A stretch of DNA of 64,000 nt from Ophiosphaerella korrae (lineage: Eukaryota > Ascomycota > Dothideomycetes > Pleosporales > Phaeosphaeriaceae): contig JALNQF010000027.1 of assembly GCA_028456385.1 (NCBI GenBank), positions 186,001-250,000 on the forward strand, given 5' to 3'. Positions 50,906 through 63,845 of this stretch are shown here, piece by piece. The stretch's first letter is position 1. Each line of letters opens with the position of its first letter. A model generated the notes under the pieces. That model saw only the letters and a list, made by a program, of their open reading frames with translations, was not told where the DNA came from and did no database searches. The translations under genes were made by a program, and so were the position numbers.

Positions 50906-53900
50906 ATGGCACCGCAAAAAGCATCCAAACACAAAAAGTTGCAGCAGAATGTACTTACTGGACACACGAACGGCGGTTCGCCTGTTACTAGTCCAGTCAA
51001 GGAGGCACTACCCGTCCGCTCTCCTTTGGCCGCTCAACCCACGGAGACCTATGAGAAAGTACAGGAAGATGAACGTGAGGTCTTGAAGGCCGTTTTTATG
51101 GAAGATTATGAAGAATCCGAGGCCACAGGAGCATGGAGTAAAACCACGGACCGTGTACTCCGATTGAAGCTAAGGTCATTTTCGAACGATGATATCTCCA
51201 TCACTTTGTGTGCCAAAATCACCGCTACTTACCCCAAGTCGCTGCCCGCTCTGACCTTCGAGAATGCAACCAACCTGCGGAAAAGAACTTTGGAGAAGCT
51301 TCGCACTCTACTCGCAGAGCGGCCCAAAGAGCTGCTTGGGGAGGTCATGATTCACGAAATCGCGACTGCGATCCAGGATATCCTCGAAGATGAAATTGCT
51401 GTGCGCGAAAATGACGGCACCTTTGCAAACCTAGATGCCGAACGAGCTGTCCAGGAGGCCGTAGCTGCTGAGACTGCCAAGCAGCAAGAAGAGGAGTTGA
51501 AAAGGAAGCGAGATGAAGAAAAGGCAGAAGAGGAACGTGTTCTCCAACAGATGGTCAGCGATGAGGTGCGTCGTAAAGATATCATGGTCAAACGCAAAAA
51601 CAGAGCCTCTGGAGTTGGTCAAACATCTTATTTCCCAACAGGCAGGGCCGCTGGTCATGTTTCGTTCGACAGGACGGTCATCTATCAACATGATGACGCC
51701 ATGATCGATTGTAGCGTCGTTGAGGGTCTACTCCCGTTCCGCACCGGGCCAGTGACTAATAACTTACTGGTAAAACCTGTTGGCGATTCGCCCACAATTA
51801 CACTTGTTCTAAAACGTGCTCGTGTTGGTGGCGGTAACTCTGCTGCTGGGCCACAACTGAAGAAAGCTATCATGGAGCTCGAGGAAGAGATGGAAGAGAT
51901 CAAACGACTACGGCAGAATGCAATAATGACTGTTCTTGACTTCAAAGTTGAACACCTCCCCGACTCAGGTTGGGAAATCAACATATTGATGGAGCACGCG
52001 AATAAGGGTTCTCTAGGCGAAAAACTAGAGGATGATGGGCAGGTTGCGGTCGCAAAAGTACGCGCTTGGACTATTGAACTACTAGAGGCCTTGGATTTTC
52101 TTCATCGTAACGGTATTGTTCACAGGCGCGTCCATCCCCGCAATATACTCTTGAGGAAATCTGCTACAGGAAATTTCTCCGTTAGTCTAGCAGATGCAGG
52201 GTTTCAAAACAGCCTGCATCATATGCAGCATCTGGGCAGAGGGGAACAAATCTCTCCTTTTTCGAGATCAGCATTTTGGGTCGCGGCTGAGCTCGCCCAG
52301 GACGCGCGCCGCACACGTAAAACCGATGTGTGGGATCTTGGGGTTGTGTTTCTCCAGATGCTTTTCGGACTGGAGGTACCCCAGACATATAATTCACCAA
52401 AAGATCTATCGGAGACATTGGGCTGCTCTGACCCACTTCAAGAGATTCTGCGTAAATTTTTCAAACCCGACCCCAAAAAGCGACCATCGGCCTTCGATCT
52501 GATTCCATGTGAGTTCCTACGAGATGACGTACCAGTGTACGAGCAGCCTCCGACTCCAGTGAGATCTAGGCAGTCTTCGACTTCCATGGGCCGATTTAAG
52601 CTTCGACGTGAGTCTTCATCCGGGATAGGTGGACCTTACTCACGATATGCGACCGACTGGGTCGAACAAGGCCGCTTGGGCAAAGGAGGCTATGGAGTGG
52701 TTGTGAAGGCGCGTAACAAAGTTGATGGGCATATTTATGCTATCAAGAAAATCAAGCAGAAGTCAGCCTCTGCGCTTACCGAGGTCCTTTCTGAGGTTAT
52801 GTTGCTATCGCGACTCAACCATCCGTGCGTTGTACGCTACTATACGGCTTGGCCGGAAGAGGACATTCCTGACATGATTGAGGCAGACGATGATGACTCT
52901 ATAACATTCGACAGCGATGATTCGAGTACAAGTAGCGATGACTCACAAGATGGCACTGATGATGGTGGGCTTAGTCACAGCACAGGGGGCTTGGACTTCA
53001 TCAGCTCAAGTGGCTATCCCAATATCGAGTTCGGATCTGATGCAGGGTCAGACGAAGAAGGTAATGATGGCGCTATCGTGTTCGGTTCTGACTCAGGTGA
53101 GTGACAGCAATACGCACCTCAAATGCACTAGCTCAATTTCAACAGAAGACGACACTGGAACTGCGAGTGCGGGGCCAAGATCCCCAGTACTCGAAAAACG
53201 AAACATGTCTATTCCAAACTCTCGCCGATCGGTAAGGTCGGTTCTATATATCCAGATGGAGTTTTGCGAGAAGCAGACGCTTCGTGACCTCATTCGACGA
53301 GGCTTGCATGACGAGCCAGAGGAATACTGGAGACTCTTCCGACAAATGCTGGAAGGGCTCGCCCACGTCCATGGACATGGTATCATTCATCGCGATCTGA
53401 AGCCAGATAACATCTTCATTGACGTTGCAAAAATACCAAAAATTGGTGACTTTGGGCTTGCCACGAGTGGTCAATATCAGAGGCCTGACAAGAAAGTGTC
53501 TGCTGGCATCCAAGACGGTGATATGACTAGAAGTGTGGGGACTGCACTTTACGTCGCACCAGAGCTCAGCTCGAACATGACTGGTAGCTACAATGATAAA
53601 GTGGACATGTATTCCATGGGCATCATATTTTTCGAGATGTGCTTTCCATTATCGACAGCTATGGAGCGGGATAAAATCATTCGCTCGCTTCGGGAACGGA
53701 AGCATGACCTACCCGCAGACTTTGAAAACCCAGAGAAGTCGTTGCAGGGAAGTATTATTGAGTCTTTGATCAGCCATCGCCCATCTGAGCGGCCGAGCTG
53801 TGCCGAGCTACTGCGGACTGGGAAGGTGCCAGTGCAGATTGAAGATGAGGCCGTCAAAGAGGCTCTCAAAGCGTTGTCTGACCGAAACTCGCCACACTAC

Positions 53901-55823
53901 ACTAAAATGATGGCTGCACTATTTTCCCAGAAACCAGACACACAAGCCAGGGATTATGCCTGGGACATGGATGTTGCGGCAAATACTATCAAGGCGAACG
54001 ATGTCCTGCTGCAGAATCTCATCAAGGACAGACTAAAAATGGTATTCCGCAGCCATGGCGCAGTTGAAATCCAACGACAACTGTTGCTACCTTGGTCCGA
54101 TCATTATGCCAACAACAACGTCGTGAAACTTTTCGATCCTTCAGGCACTCTAGTCCAGCTACCTTATGATCTTACTTTGCCGTATGCCCGTAGCATTGGA
54201 CGAGGTGCGCCATTCCTTGAGAAGACCTTCACGATCGGCCAGGTTTATAGGGACATATACACTGGAGGCGCACCGCGCAGTATAGGCGAGGCTGACTTTG
54301 ACATCCTGTCGTATGATACGCTTGATCTCGCCCTCAAGGAAGCCGAAGTCTTGAAAGTTGTTGACGAAATCATTGACGAATTTCCGTCTTTCGGCTCAAC
54401 GCCAATGTGCTTCCATCTTAATCATGCCGATCTCCTGGAAATAGTCATGGAATTCTGCCGGATTAGCGCTCCTCAACGTCCAGCTGTGAAGACGGTGTTG
54501 ACACAACTGAACATCTCAAAGCATGGTTGGCCAGATATACGCAATAGGCTACGCTCCTCGGAGATTGGTGTGTCGTCAACTTCGCTAGACGACCTTGCGC
54601 GCTTTGACTGGAGGGATACGCCGGACAAAGCTTTTGCCAAACTACGACGCATATTCGCAGGCACCAAGTATCTTGATCGCACACACGCAATCTTCGCACA
54701 TCTCAGCTCTGTTGTGAGCTATATGAAACTTTGGAAAGTCAAGCGAAAAGTCTACATCAGCGTTCTGAGCAACTTCAATGAGAAATTTTATGCAGGTGGA
54801 ATATTGTTTCAGTGTCTGTTTGACACCAAACAACGTGAGGTACTCGCCGCGGGTGGGCGGTATGACAAACTGATTGAAGAGTATCGGCCAAAGGGACCAG
54901 GTCATTCGCACACAAGCACGGGCTATCACGCTGTCGGCGTCAACCTGAGGTGGGACTGGCTTGTCAATTCTATGACACGATACCTAAAAAATATAGGCAA
55001 GTCATCATTCCTAAAAAAGCACTCAGGGGAAGATACACCCTCTATATCGTGGATGCCCCGGCGCTGTGACTGTCTCATCGCTAGCTTTGACTCCAACGTG
55101 CTTCGCTCCACAGGCGTTAAATTGGTGGCCGAGCTCATTGCACACGGTTTTACCGCAGAACTTGCAGTAGACGCCCACTCTATTGAAGACATCCTGCGCC
55201 ACTATAGAGATGACAGACACAGCTGGGTCATCGTTGTCAAGCATGGTGTCGCAGGCGACAAACCAGAACTCAAAGTCAAATCCATTGCAAAGAAAGAAGA
55301 CACAGACCTTCGAACTCCCGATCTACTGAACTACCTTCGCAACGAGCTCCGAGACCGTGAGGCTCGCGAAGGTAGTGCGGCCCAACGTTCAACCAAGGCT
55401 ATTGCTAGCACCAATGCTGCGGCCTCGACATCAATGAGATCCAACGTCGATGTGCTCATCGCACAACATCGCTCGAAGAAATCAAATAAGTGGTCAATTA
55501 TCGAAGCCGCACAGTCAAGATCTGCGGAGCTTCTCTCGTCCTTTAATTCTGCGCCTATCGTGGCCGTTGAGTGTAAAGACGAGATTATGGATATCGTTCG
55601 GAAAACTAGACTGAGTGACCCGGATTCATGGCGCCAAGCTATCCAAAAGTTGCCTATTGCGGAAAGAAAATACTTGCAAGATCTGCATAATGTACTCTTT
55701 GGCTACAAAGAGACGTGGGATAGGGTACGAAATGAAGAAGGGAAGGGGAGTGGAGAGGTTGGTAAGGCGTTTGTCTACAGCTTCAGAACTGGCGGGTGCT
55801 TGCTGTATGATCTTGATAGTTGA
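50906..55823 (+). CDS. GCN2: eIF2-alpha kinase Gcn2 (CPC-3)
   Basis: 1622-aa sensor kinase that phosphorylates eIF2-alpha on uncharged-tRNA signals. Exon 1 is 50906-53096 and exon 2 is 53146-55823, with a 49-nt intron. Domains in order: RWD near residues 45-170 (TYEKVQEDEREVLKAVFMED), a charged helix, a pseudokinase near 250-540 lacking catalytic residues (VHRRVHPRN in place of HRD; LADAGF in place of DFG), the kinase near 585-935 (GRLGKGGYGVVVKAR, YAIKKIKQ, an acidic Ser/Asp insert, HRDLKPDNIFI, IGDFGLA, SVGTALYVAPEL), the HisRS-like domain from about 990 (FDPSGTLVQLPYDLTLPYAR, AAGGRYDKLIEEY), and the C-terminal dimer/ribosome region. The full architecture is intact. Confidence 0.97.
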
Positions 55824-58511: not shown

Positions 58512-61500
58512 TCATGTTGCAGGGCTGCCTGCTGCAACGCCCGACCCGAGCTCTACCACCCGACTCCGCTCCACTAGCCGTTTCCACGTCTTCTTGCTTT
58601 CGTCTATCTCGCCATCTTCGCCCACGCCTCCTGTGAGCGTGGCCCTGTTCCCAATGATCACGACTCCGCATTTCGCCCTGGTCATGACTACATTGAGCCT
58701 CCGCATGTCGGCCAGGAATCCAACGTCGCACGACGCATTGCAGCGCACAGTCACGAAGACGACGATATCTGCTTCACGGCCTTGAAACCCGTCGATAGAG
58801 GATACTTCGACGCCCGGTATGGCGGCGCTGAGAGCCTCCTTCTGGCGTGTGTACGGCGTCAGAATAGCTATCGAGGCGTCTGCAGGCTTCGGGGCGTTGT
58901 CGGCACCAGGGCTAGCGAGAAGTTTAATCGCAGCCTTGCAGAGATCAACCTGGCCTTGGTTGAGCTTCGACTGTCGACCGAGATCCTCCGAGGCGCTGCA
59001 TTCTATCCAAACCACACGATGCTCCTTCGGCCAGGGGAAGAGCGAGACGGGTAGCGGTCGAGTATGGTCTGCTACCGCCGTTTTTAACTTTCCGTCGTAG
59101 AACTCCGTGGAGCTGAAGTCGCAAATCGTGCGGTGCATGCGGTACTGCATGTCTAGCATTGCCTTGGCTACATGATCACGGCGTGGTAGGTTATAGTGCC
59201 GTTCGAACAGCGAGACGTCGTAGCCAACGAGTACTGCATTCTTCTGCACTGTGGCGCGGAGCTGGACGTGGTCTCCGACTAGGATTGCGCGGGAACATCC
59301 TTTGACTAAGGGCACGAGGGTGGCTGGTTCGGTTTGCTGTGATGCTTCGTCGACAATGACTACGTTGAACGCCTCACTACGTAGTAGACCGAGGCTCGCG
59401 CCGATGCATGTGGTGAATATTAGACGGGCTTCTTTGATTCTCTTTTGTGCTTTGTGGCGGGCGGACATGTTGCTGCCGAGATCCTTGCCCAGCATTGCGT
59501 CGCAAGTGTATTGTCGAAGATCTGTGGATACCTTGGACAGCTTGTGGTACACTGTTAGCAGTATTCCTAGAGATGGTTTCCATCCATCACTTACCTGGGT
59601 TGACACTCTGACAGGAGTAATATCTAACTTCTTCGCTTCCTTGTCAGCTACAAATCTTCGGAGTATGTTGTCAACGGCGTTATGCGTCGGCGCCGTAATG
59701 AGAAATCTGGATTTCGGCAACGCTTTCAAGAGCTGGCATAAGATGACGATAATGGTGTGCGTCTTGCCGGTTCCGGGAGGACCCCAGATCAGCGTTAGAG
59801 AATGCTGCATGGCAGCTCGAAGTGCGTCATTTTGGCTCTCGTTGAGGGTCGGGTCTTTAACAACAGGTAGTTTGATATTTGGAAGCTCGATCTGATCAGT
59901 TCCAGAAAGACCCAAAAGAGAAGCATAAATGGGGCAACAGGCTTCGCGCTCAGTGTAGAATGCCGTGAGGGAATCGAAGGTCGTTTTGCTCGTGACGAAT
60001 GAACCGCATTGTGTTAAGCTCCATGCGCATTCTCCAAGGTATGAAGGTGGCACATGCAGACATCGGATAGAGACAACACCCATGTCTGCCTTAGCGACAA
60101 GCGCGTCCATCGAGAAAGGTTTTGCCAATGGGTCGTTCCGTGGAGCATTGGTGACGGTGAGTCGAATGTGATCCCCAACTTTGAGAATTCCACCGATAGA
60201 AGAATCGACGCGTAGGAAGCTCTTCACAATCATAAATCCATCTTCGTATTTCTCAAAAGCAAGCTTTATCGATTCCCGCTCTGGCTTCTGGCCGCTTTCT
60301 GCCTCATCGATATGGTCCAAAGCAATGCCAAAAAGCGATGACGTGTATTGGCGGATTGCTGTTGGGCGTCCGACGAGTAATCAGGGCGTCTCTGGCTCAA
60401 GGACTTCAAGGAGAAGATCCAAGGCAATCTCGGATGAGCGAACCGTCAGTGCGATGAGTTCAACCAACTCTGCAAAGTCCTGCAAAGACATCCTCTTCAG
60501 TTCGCGAAGTAGGAGCAAAAGAGGCTGCCTGATAAAACCGGTGAGCTCATTGTCTGCTAATACAAGTTTTTTTACCATGGTCGGAGCTAAATGAACTAGG
60601 TTCTCTTCAACCACTTCTTTTTGATCAACCCACTTTCGTGACTGGAGGAAGGTTGTGGTCAGATACACTGCATCGGGAAGGAATTTCATAAGAGTTAATA
60701 AAAGATTCCGATCACTGAGCGCGAAAGTTGAGTTTTCCCCTGCTGATAGAACATAAGAGAATATATCACGGAGTCGCGATTTCTCACCATACTTCTGGAG
60801 AAGATCCAAAATCTCTCGCAAGTCTCCCGTAGACTTCACCCGCTGCAGCGATGAGAGGTCATTATCACGGCAGACACACTGAACGTGCTCACGACATTCT
60901 TCCCAATTCAAGTGTGCCAGCTTCGGAGCATCATATTCAAGCTCCAGCTTTTCAAAGAGCGGCAGAACTTCTTCGGTGTCGATGTAGTGAAGCCACTGGT
61001 CGAGCACACTCATAGAGGCAACATCACGATTACTGATGATATACACTTCCTAAGCAGAATCAGCATTGTGTATCAAACATCAGCATAATACTTACGGCAC
61101 CCATCACCCCTTCGCGCTGAACCTTGCCAACATGCGTCTGCACATCTCGACTAATCTTATTCAGAGCAATGCTGGCCCTACAATCAAAGTTGATTTCCTC
61201 GCGTACAGTCTTCTCCCTGGCTCTCCGCTTATCCCCCTGACTAGACACAGCACGGTACGCCGAATCATCCCCCTTTGGCGCACTGAGGAAAATCCAAGTA
61301 TCCCGTTTCTTCCGTTGATATAGCTGAAAAACGTGTTCATCGCAGTACAACCGGTAATCAACCTTTGTAGGCACAACACGGTAATTCGCCGACTCATGGC
61401 CCTGCGAGTGGGGAAAGACAAACACTCGCACACGGGCATCCACCGCAACCTCGCTGGCCTTTGCAATCTTCTGCGGAATATACACACCCATACTCACGCG

Positions 61501-63845
61501 TTCGCCCAGGTTCAGTATGATGAGTTTCTTGTGGAAAACCTCTGACGCACGACAAACCGCGGGGAGAAATCGTCCCATGCGGTCGCGCGCCGAGTCAAAC
61601 ACGGGCTTCCAGTGCAGGCGTGGGTGGTCGAGTCCGAAGCGACGGAACTCGTGCGGGTACACGAGGTTGGACTGGAGCAGGGCATTGCGGACGAGGCTCG
61701 GCGTTGTGACGGATGGTGGGAGGCGGCTGAGGAACCAAATCTGTTGCTCGTCCGTGAGGGCGCTGAAGGTGATGAAGTGGCTGTACTCCATCACGTCGAT
61801 GCTGTTGCGGTCACACCAGCGGATGACGACGTTTAGGAGTTCGAATTCTGACATGGCGATCTTGTCCCGGGTTAGGAGTAGGTCCATGATATCTGGGTCG
61901 TCGTGTGCTTCGGGTTTCAGGTTCGCGGTACGGTGGATCAATTCTGTGCATGTCTGGTGCAAAACGTCTAGGATGAAGGGCTTGGATAGAGGGCCTGGTT
62001 CGTGTGGGTCTTCGAGGTTGGCGGGAATCTTGATATGGTTGCCGTCCACGCACTGGGAGAATAGTCGGTTGAGTTGTTGGCATTCAGGGCTCATAGAATC
62101 TCCTAGGCGCGCCCACTTCATGTACAGGTTCTTGACTTTTCCTAGTGATGCGTTGGTGTAACGAGCGAAATATTCTGCGCGAGTGTCGCCTGTTACTGGG
62201 CTGAAGCTTATGGGCTCCTTTCCGCCAGGATATTGCGCGGGTTCGGACATTTTTCTAGGAATGATGTCGCTGTCCCATGTGACGAAAACTGTTATGTGTA
62301 AGTGTTGAACAAAACAACAAAGAAACTCAATTAATGGAAAACCGCATACATTTATCACCGTCCAGATCACCTCCAGACATCAAGTCGGCACTTGGCCGTG
62401 CACCCTTCGTAGAGAATACGATGCAATCAGCTAGATGTGAGAACTCGGGTATGTCGACGGCTTTGAACTTCTGTAAGTCACCCGGGTGAAGACATGGATT
62501 CCTAGTCACCAAAACCTCAGTGTTGATGATGGTTTGTGCCCTCCCATCGCCATCTTGCGTGATGCGGACGAAACACTCTCCCTCTCTCAGTCGTCCTGAA
62601 CAGCCATCCTTAGCTGTTGGGTCACAAACACCAAAGAGCAGTCGAGACTTCGGAATCAATATACGACACCGTTGCTCGTCGCGCTTGTTGATCATACGAA
62701 CGTGCTCTTGCTTAACGAGCGCTTTCAGCGATGCAGAGACAGCGCTTAGCCCTTCGAGCAAAAGCTTCTCTGCCAAGTCGATCCGATTCACATAAGACAA
62801 GAACTGGAACGCAGCTCTTGGGTCTCCTTGGCTGACATTCTGAAGAAAATCGAGATGTGCTGCTTGTTTGGCGAGGAGCATTTCTTGGGATATCCCGAGT
62901 GTGTGCAACAGCACAACAACCTCGTCGTTCAAGCTACCAAATGCATAAGGCTGGACCCTGTTAGCTGATACAAAGCCAGGATAATAATTTCAATACCTTG
63001 GAGTAGTCTACAACAGCGAAACTATGATCTGGCGAGTCTTTGAACTTCCGCATGGAGGCCCGAAACTGAATCTGGATCTGCCCCCGAAGTGTCGGATCCA
63101 AAGTCAGAACTCCCTTGTATCCGCGATAGCGTATCTGGAAAACCGAAGGACAGTATCGTCGGTCGCGAAACACTATGTTGCGTTTTTGCGCCAAGTAGTT
63201 TGCCAGTTTGGAGGAGATGAGGCCGCAGCCGTCGGTGTAGATGTAGTCCTTCGTCGCAACGTCGTCGATGTCCTGACAGCGACCAGGGGGTAGATCGAGA
63301 GCCACTTCGGCGCTTGAGAAGAGTAGTCCGATACGCTTGGCTTTCTTGCCAACAGATTTGAGCTTTGAGAGATCGCCCATTGCCTCGATCTTCGCCGATA
63401 TCTCTTCCTTTGACGCTGCGTATAAAAAGCAAGATCTTGACTTGAGCTGACTGTTCGAATGACCAAAGAAGTGATATATGACACCGTTGATCTTAATTCC
63501 AGCATGTAGCATTCGTGTCATGTAGTTTCCGTTTTCTCTCCCTGTAGCGGGGCGGGAAGGATCGCTTGCTGACGCAGCTGGCCATTGTAGTTTGAAATCC
63601 GTGAAAGAGAGTAGGATAAATCGATCAAGGCTGTCGTGCTGAGTGACTCGATTCGAGGGTACGGTACCCATACGCAGCGTGATATGCTGTTTTTCTCTAG
63701 AAGAGACTACAGATATGCATTTGATAAGCCGTTCTGAATTAGCTTGCTGGGGTTTGGGAAGGTCTGGCACAAGATACTCCCATTTGTCGTCATCTGGGCT
63801 GACACTTGCCTGTAGCGCTTTAGAATACGACTTGAGTGACTTCAT
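58512..63845 (-). CDS. RNA-dependent RNA polymerase fused in frame to SF1 (Upf1/Hrr1-like) helicase, one internal TGA
   Basis: Exons: 63845-62997, 62950-62350, 62288-61096, 61049-59595 and 59540-58512; introns 46, 61, 46 and 54 nt. Summed exons give 1709 codons in one frame, broken only by TGA 60383-60381 (codon 1104). The RdRP part (PF05183-like) has VPSNRVTQHDSLDRFILLSF, YTDGCGLIS, CPSVFQIRYRGYKGVLTLDP, and the catalytic DLDGD at residues 478-482 in LMSGGDLDGDKFFVTWDSD. A helical linker of roughly 200 residues follows. The helicase part has GPPGTGKTHT (Walker A, near 1303), APTHNAVDNILRR, VIVDEASQQTEPATL, LVGDHVQLRATV, MQYRMHRTICDFSS, SSIDGFQGREADIVVF and DMRRLNVVMTRAKCG. The helicase frame has no ATG until 60233, 148 nt past the TGA, so a separate helicase gene is unlikely. 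The RdRP lacks the several-hundred-residue N terminus usual in fungi; an in-frame TGA lies just upstream of ATG 63845. Confidence 0.85.
60381..60383 (-). other. In-frame TGA between RdRP and helicase
   Basis: Codons read LEPETP, TGA, LLVGRPTAIRQYTSSLFG. It is followed by TTA, not the CTA of known leaky stops. Change from CGA would need one C-to-T transition. No intron with good sites and matching phase removes it; the best alternative found is 60404-60288 (donor GTCCTT, acceptor GGCCAG). Confidence 0.85.

Follow-up and report, generated by a model that had tools for sequence, protein, structure and literature searches.

A probable FgRdRP5-family RNA-dependent RNA polymerase–helicase fusion gene of Ophiosphaerella korrae whose frame is interrupted by an internal TGA

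In the fungus Ophiosphaerella korrae, a 64,000-nucleotide stretch of DNA (the window; positions 186,001 to 250,000 of contig JALNQF010000027.1, assembly GCA_028456385.1) carries on its minus strand, between window positions 63845 and 58512, a gene in which an RNA-dependent RNA polymerase (RdRP) is followed in the same frame by a superfamily 1 (SF1) helicase. This gene is probably an FgRdRP5-family fusion whose frame, in this assembly, ends at an in-frame TGA situated after the RdRP and the linker. Sequence comparison places it in an old Dikarya family, the FgRdRP5 family, that joins a cellular RdRP to a UPF1-like helicase. The original prediction on this locus, which regarded the two halves as silencing partners encoded in a single polypeptide, left aside whether such fusions had been described; they are already known from Fusarium, the domain make-up of FgRdRP5 (RdRP plus helicase) having been published in 2015 for Fusarium graminearum. 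Either a recent mutation or an error in the sequence would account for the internal TGA; readthrough is the least likely account.

The gene consists of five exons and four GT-AG introns, and all of its features lie on the minus strand. Exon 1 (62997-63845) begins at the ATG at 63845, and the N-terminus that it encodes is similar to that annotated for the closest relative, a protein of Phaeosphaeriaceae sp. PMI808 (P0001). It is followed by exon 2 (62350-62950), exon 3 (61096-62288), exon 4 (59595-61049), which holds the internal TGA, and exon 5 (58512-59540), which ends in the native stop. The introns (62996-62951, 62349-62289, 61095-61050 and 59594-59541) measure 46, 61, 46 and 54 nt; intron 4, the last of them, would keep the frame if it were retained, and its 18 residues are absent from the relative P0003. 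The strand, the coordinates, the exon number and the four phase-consistent introns of the original prediction were all reproduced, as was the common frame of 1709 codons. However, that frame is not open, since two of its codons are stops, namely the terminal TGA (58514-58512) and an internal TGA at codon 1104 (60383-60381) that the prediction did not mention. The coding signal downstream of the internal TGA is well above chance, because between 60380 and 58512 (623 codons with intron 4 counted in) the last codon is the one stop, against 9 to 34 stops in the other five frames. The junction stretch is single-copy in the genome: a genome-wide search with 400 bases of it returned one match, itself, and no second copy of the junction.

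The domains previously reported were also confirmed. The RdRP domain (PF05183, E 9.8e-117) occupies residues 63-581 (61996-63659, spanning introns 1 and 2) and includes DLDGD, the DxDGD catalytic motif of cellular RdRPs, at residues 478-482 (62354-62368). The linker (residues 582-1103; 60384-61995, spanning intron 3) yielded no Pfam family above the cut-off; over the whole of residues 1-1103, PF05183 alone exceeded its cut-off, two further families remained below theirs, and no search was aimed at the UPF1 Cys-His domain. Past the TGA, a pre-core region (59850-60221) aligns with the UPF1 encoded by the same genome (locus L010), and the SF1 helicase core (PF13086 and PF13087) covers 58644-59849, spanning intron 4; the 622 codons that follow the TGA, with intron 4 unspliced, match PF13087 at 5.3e-50 and PF13086 at 4.6e-45. 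As in an FgRdRP5-type protein, an RdRP domain with DxDGD is followed C-terminally, within one gene and one frame, by an SF1 helicase, and what this copy lacks is a single uninterrupted coding frame, owing to the TGA at codon 1104. The descent from the FgRdRP5-type family stands, whereas an intact product does not.

Among solved structures, the best relative of the RdRP half is plant RDR2 (7.5e-63), QDE-1 scoring far lower (8.1e-14 at best), and the helicase half matches NAM7/UPF1 best (3.8e-54 versus 1.4e-23 for ZNFX1). Ten other PF13087 loci of the genome were compared through their open frames; of these, the helicase half is also most similar to the UPF1 locus L010 (207 bits, with 30% identity in 561 aligned positions), followed by L011 (142 bits), L012 (99 bits) and the ZNFX1-type group L014-L017 (78 to 91 bits). 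The assignment of this group rests on L014, the only member compared with solved structures, whose top match was ZNFX1, and on the helicase tree, in which L015, L016 and L017 join L014 at 100/100. In that tree L014-L017 are the nearest to the fusions, yet the branch in between measures 4 changes per column and carries a long-branch warning, and their placement is unreliable. By score, the fused helicase is nearest to UPF1/NAM7 rather than to ZNFX1, the class of Hrr1, and the tree does not settle the question. The grouping of four helicases, one of them (L014) ZNFX1-type, exceeds the single Hrr1 that fission yeast presumably has. Genome-wide, PF13087 gave 20 matches and PF05183 seven, the latter being read as four RdRP genes because exons match separately. 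Internal stops occur in family matches at the RdRP/helicase loci L003, L018, L024, L026 and L029, which may contain introns or be further broken copies.

To place the internal stop among related proteins, the gene was aligned, its TGA entered as X, to 93 homologues found with residues 700-1330 as query. All 93 have a sense residue in the column of the TGA (60381-60383), which is Arg in 83 of them, His, Lys and Gly in two each, and Thr, Gln, Leu and Ser in one each. The flanks of this column are free of gaps in the close relatives; a few distant homologues (P0088 and P0090-P0093) have gaps nearby, and their letter is less sure. Thus, the TGA occupies the site of a sense codon and not an intron, as all the homologues have a residue there and the close relatives show no flanking gaps. 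The homologues are annotated proteins, in which annotators may hide a stop of a relative, though they usually leave a gap in doing so.

The fusion itself is widespread. According to precomputed domains tallied by hand, PF05183 occurs together with PF13086 or PF13087 in 81 of the 93 homologues (a share that is no census), while 10 lack PF05183 and two (P0014 and P0089) lack the helicase domains. Moreover, single proteins cover both halves, as more than 85% of residues 61-600 and of residues 1151-1690 is covered in 56 of the 93. The encoding of two partners as one protein, claimed earlier for this locus, holds for the family, although here the in-frame TGA splits the halves. The named homologues, whose class was verified for one or two names per class and seven in all, belong to Dothideomycetes, Leotiomycetes, Sordariomycetes, Lecanoromycetes, Orbiliomycetes (P0088, which lacks PF05183) and Agaricomycetes, and the fusions span Pezizomycotina and Agaricomycetes; Trichoderma reesei QM6a is among the fungi with such a protein (P0069). 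Trees were built from 21 fused proteins and from rows outside the fusion, six for the RdRP and nine for the helicase. The helicase tree unites the fused proteins in one group (98/93), and the RdRP tree does so weakly (74/59). Pairwise distances in one half correlate with those in the other at r=0.91 (1596 pairs from 57 proteins), a correlation that shared species history by itself also raises. These results fit one old fusion whose halves appear to have stayed together.

Some homologues deserve separate mention. P0005 is labelled Monosporascus sp. GIB2, a genus that we take to belong to Sordariomycetes, and has 61% identity over the searched region, like the Pleosporales matches, whereas the presumed Sordariomycetes matches have about 34-42%; a mislabelled sample, contamination or transfer could account for it. 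P0007 (Kalmusia), of 2011 aa, contains families additional to RdRP and helicase, presumably those of a short-chain dehydrogenase, and may be a gene model that runs genes together. P0014 (Alternaria dauci) and P0089 have an RdRP without helicase Pfam domains and may be gene-model faults or further disabled alleles.

Decay or relaxed selection in the helicase half was sought through change counts and conserved columns, and no sign of either was seen. Identity to P0001 is 901/1073 upstream of the TGA and 382/481 downstream. Private changes were counted at sites where the available outgroups agree (at least three of P0002, P0003, P0004 and P0006). Before the TGA (1073 sites) there are 13 in the O. 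korrae copy and 13 in P0001, and after it (475 sites) there are 8 versus 18, a surplus in P0001 that may come from faulty exon models. The linker alone has 9 private changes in the O. korrae copy versus 6 in P0001, and the stretch from the TGA to residue 1270 has 4 versus 3. At columns in which at least 95% of the sequences share one residue, the O. korrae copy departs at 1/167 before the TGA and 1/102 after it, and P0001 at 1/166 before the site and 0/74 after. Since the helicase half is free of decay, the TGA would be young, erroneous or bypassed.

Several points weigh against the reading of the gene as an interrupted member of an old silencing-related family. The homologue search was limited to proteins of 0.55-1.75x the query length, and the 8000 candidates sharing most words were scored, so that the bias favours fusions. 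The RdRP tree gives weak support to one fused group, both trees have long branches, and the outside rows are few. P0001 lacks some exons of the helicase half, which confines the rate comparison to 475/604 positions, and the comparison is blind to a very recent stop. Orthology to FgRdRP5 was established through architecture and other Fusarium relatives (e.g., P0080 and P0083-P0086), and not through the F. graminearum sequence. As regards function, the 2024 article on FgRdRP5 proposes that its helicase part could serve rRNA processing or mRNA decay (of ribosomal and messenger RNA, respectively) (PMC11237814), and according to PMC10766185 the fgrdrp knock-outs of one study left disease symptoms and vegetative growth unaltered.

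Among the explanations of the stop, a real and recent nonsense mutation, which would make the allele null or leave an RdRP-linker product, stands close to an even chance. The undrifted helicase half fits a young event, and fungal RdRP genes can be lost, as indicated for Cryphonectria rdr4 (RRP-3 clade), described as an apparent RdRP pseudogene with truncated products (PMC4182546). The annotation of P0014 and P0089 without helicase Pfam domains also points in this direction, but these two may be faults of the gene models. Moreover, a single assembly is at hand, from which alone a recent mutation and an error are indistinguishable. A sequencing or assembly error in an intact gene is a serious possibility as well, if somewhat short of probable. 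It is favoured by the conserved sense position, by the intact domains on both sides and by the undecayed helicase half. However, the TGA arises as a substitution and not as an indel in a simple run, and errors do not seem to be frequent, as L001, L002 and L010 have long open frames (1376, 1332 and 923 codons) and a GCN2-like gene in the window shows only one break, read as an intron; the control by open frames is weak, since these frames were chosen for being open and the matches at L003, L018, L024, L026 and L029 contain stops.

Readthrough or recoding of the TGA, which would yield a short RdRP plus a long RdRP-helicase, is improbable. Although both halves are intact and without relaxation, the residue present in 93/93 homologues indicates that, to judge by annotated proteins, a stop at this site is not a conserved feature. 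A CTA after a stop is a favourable readthrough context, whereas the bases that follow this TGA are TTACTC; the native stop is likewise TGA, and a search for RNA structure in the next 120 bases found ordinary folding (z -1.18). There is only a slight chance that this is a functional stop of a two-product gene, in which termination would give the RdRP alone and occasional readthrough the RdRP-helicase.

An unrecognised intron around the TGA is highly unlikely: given the short introns of this gene a small one could hide, but the close relatives align without gaps on both sides, with gaps in only a few distant homologues. Nine GT-AG pairs 36-160 nt apart would keep the frame, their donors being GTTCGC or GTCCTT; they were considered and rejected, as they would delete residues that the relatives keep. 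Hardly any weight can be given to a separate downstream helicase gene with its own start, for which helicase-only models (P0233 of Fusarium denticulatum, 673 aa, and P0239 of Colletotrichum sojae, 691 aa), the 10 homologues without PF05183 (possibly truncated models) and the earliest in-frame ATG past the TGA (at 60233, 49 codons downstream) could be invoked, because relatives conserve the residues from the TGA up to that ATG and both halves are covered in the 56 homologues mentioned above. A search with the helicase half (best 120 of 1378) gave mostly unnamed ena, lgn and jgi entries and a few named helicase-only models (P0233, P0239 and P0274); it is not decisive, as it admits proteins of about 342-1088 aa only, which excludes full-length fusions, and the entries may be exon-wise gene calls.

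For the favoured reading, an FgRdRP5-family fusion interrupted by the TGA, a working mechanism can be outlined. In the intact family, the SF1 motor would load on a target RNA, remove structure or protein and feed the strand to the RdRP, which would then make double-stranded RNA for Dicer. This coupling of motor and polymerase on one RNA is suggested by the domains and by the Fusarium phenotype, and a role in silencing in O. korrae may be presumed by analogy. Fixed stoichiometry and coupled unwinding, as proposed originally, would be corollaries of such an arrangement. If the TGA is real, the gene would provide an RdRP-linker protein without helicase, or its mRNA could be lost to nonsense-mediated decay. 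As the fusion is widespread and its halves evolved together, the family lends itself well to testing whether a cellular RdRP receives its template from a motor. The O. korrae locus adds little to this beyond a possible natural allele with the RdRP kept and the helicase lost; if the stop is confirmed, nature would have provided, in this strain, an experiment on the purpose of the helicase half.

Elsewhere in the window, a GCN2-like eIF2-alpha kinase gene (50906-55823, plus strand) lies in two frames, with RWD and pseudokinase parts followed by kinase, HisRS-like (histidyl-tRNA synthetase) and anticodon-binding parts. The break near 53100 is read as a putative intron, because the first frame ends within GTGAGT after a stretch matching GCN2.

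Cooperation of an RdRP with a helicase is found in fission yeast (Rdp1-Hrr1) and in Neurospora (SAD-1 and SAD-3). In those systems the two are separate genes, whereas the O. korrae halves lie in one. Moreover, the earlier view that SAD-1 and SAD-3, or Rdp1 and Hrr1, were simply joined here is not borne out: the fused helicase scores higher with NAM7/UPF1 than with ZNFX1, though the tree leaves this open, and the genome contains other RdRP loci and at least one ZNFX1-type helicase encoded apart (L014). PMC9276528 describes Hrr1 of S. pombe as orthologous to ZNFX-1 and as acting together with an RdRP. The helicase half resembles UPF1/NAM7, its best solved relatives, but has an RdRP and a linker in front, and the genome has a separate UPF1 (L010). 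The RdRP half resembles plant RDR2, from which it differs at the N-terminal side: the local match begins at residue 452 of RDR2 but at residue 107 of the O. korrae protein, which has about 345 fewer residues in front. The RNA-dependent RNA polymerases of Dictyostelium (Rrp) and oomycetes are described as including a DEAD-box helicase (PMC4791657, PMC3661229), and they likewise combine RdRP and helicase in a single protein; however, their helicase is of the DEAD-box type and precedes the RdRP, while that of O. korrae is SF1 and stands behind it.

FgRdRP5 is the known protein that matches the O. korrae gene in architecture and in domain positions, with an RdRP and then a C-terminal helicase. According to PMC11237814 (2024), Fgrdrp5 (FGSG_09076) has a C-terminal DEAD-like helicase at 1277-1478 and AAA at 1475-1677, lies on a branch separate from SAD-1, RRP-3 and QDE-1 in the published tree, and shares in the production of exonic small interfering RNA, and once it is deleted the discharge of ascospores falls to 47.6% of the wild-type level. 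The Fusarium proliferatum homologue P0080 has its helicase families at 1286-1687. Among the matches listed in a survey of literature titles and abstracts, none concerned a Dothideomycete copy or the breadth of the fusion family. Unlike FgRdRP5, the O. korrae copy carries an internal TGA between the two halves of this shared architecture.

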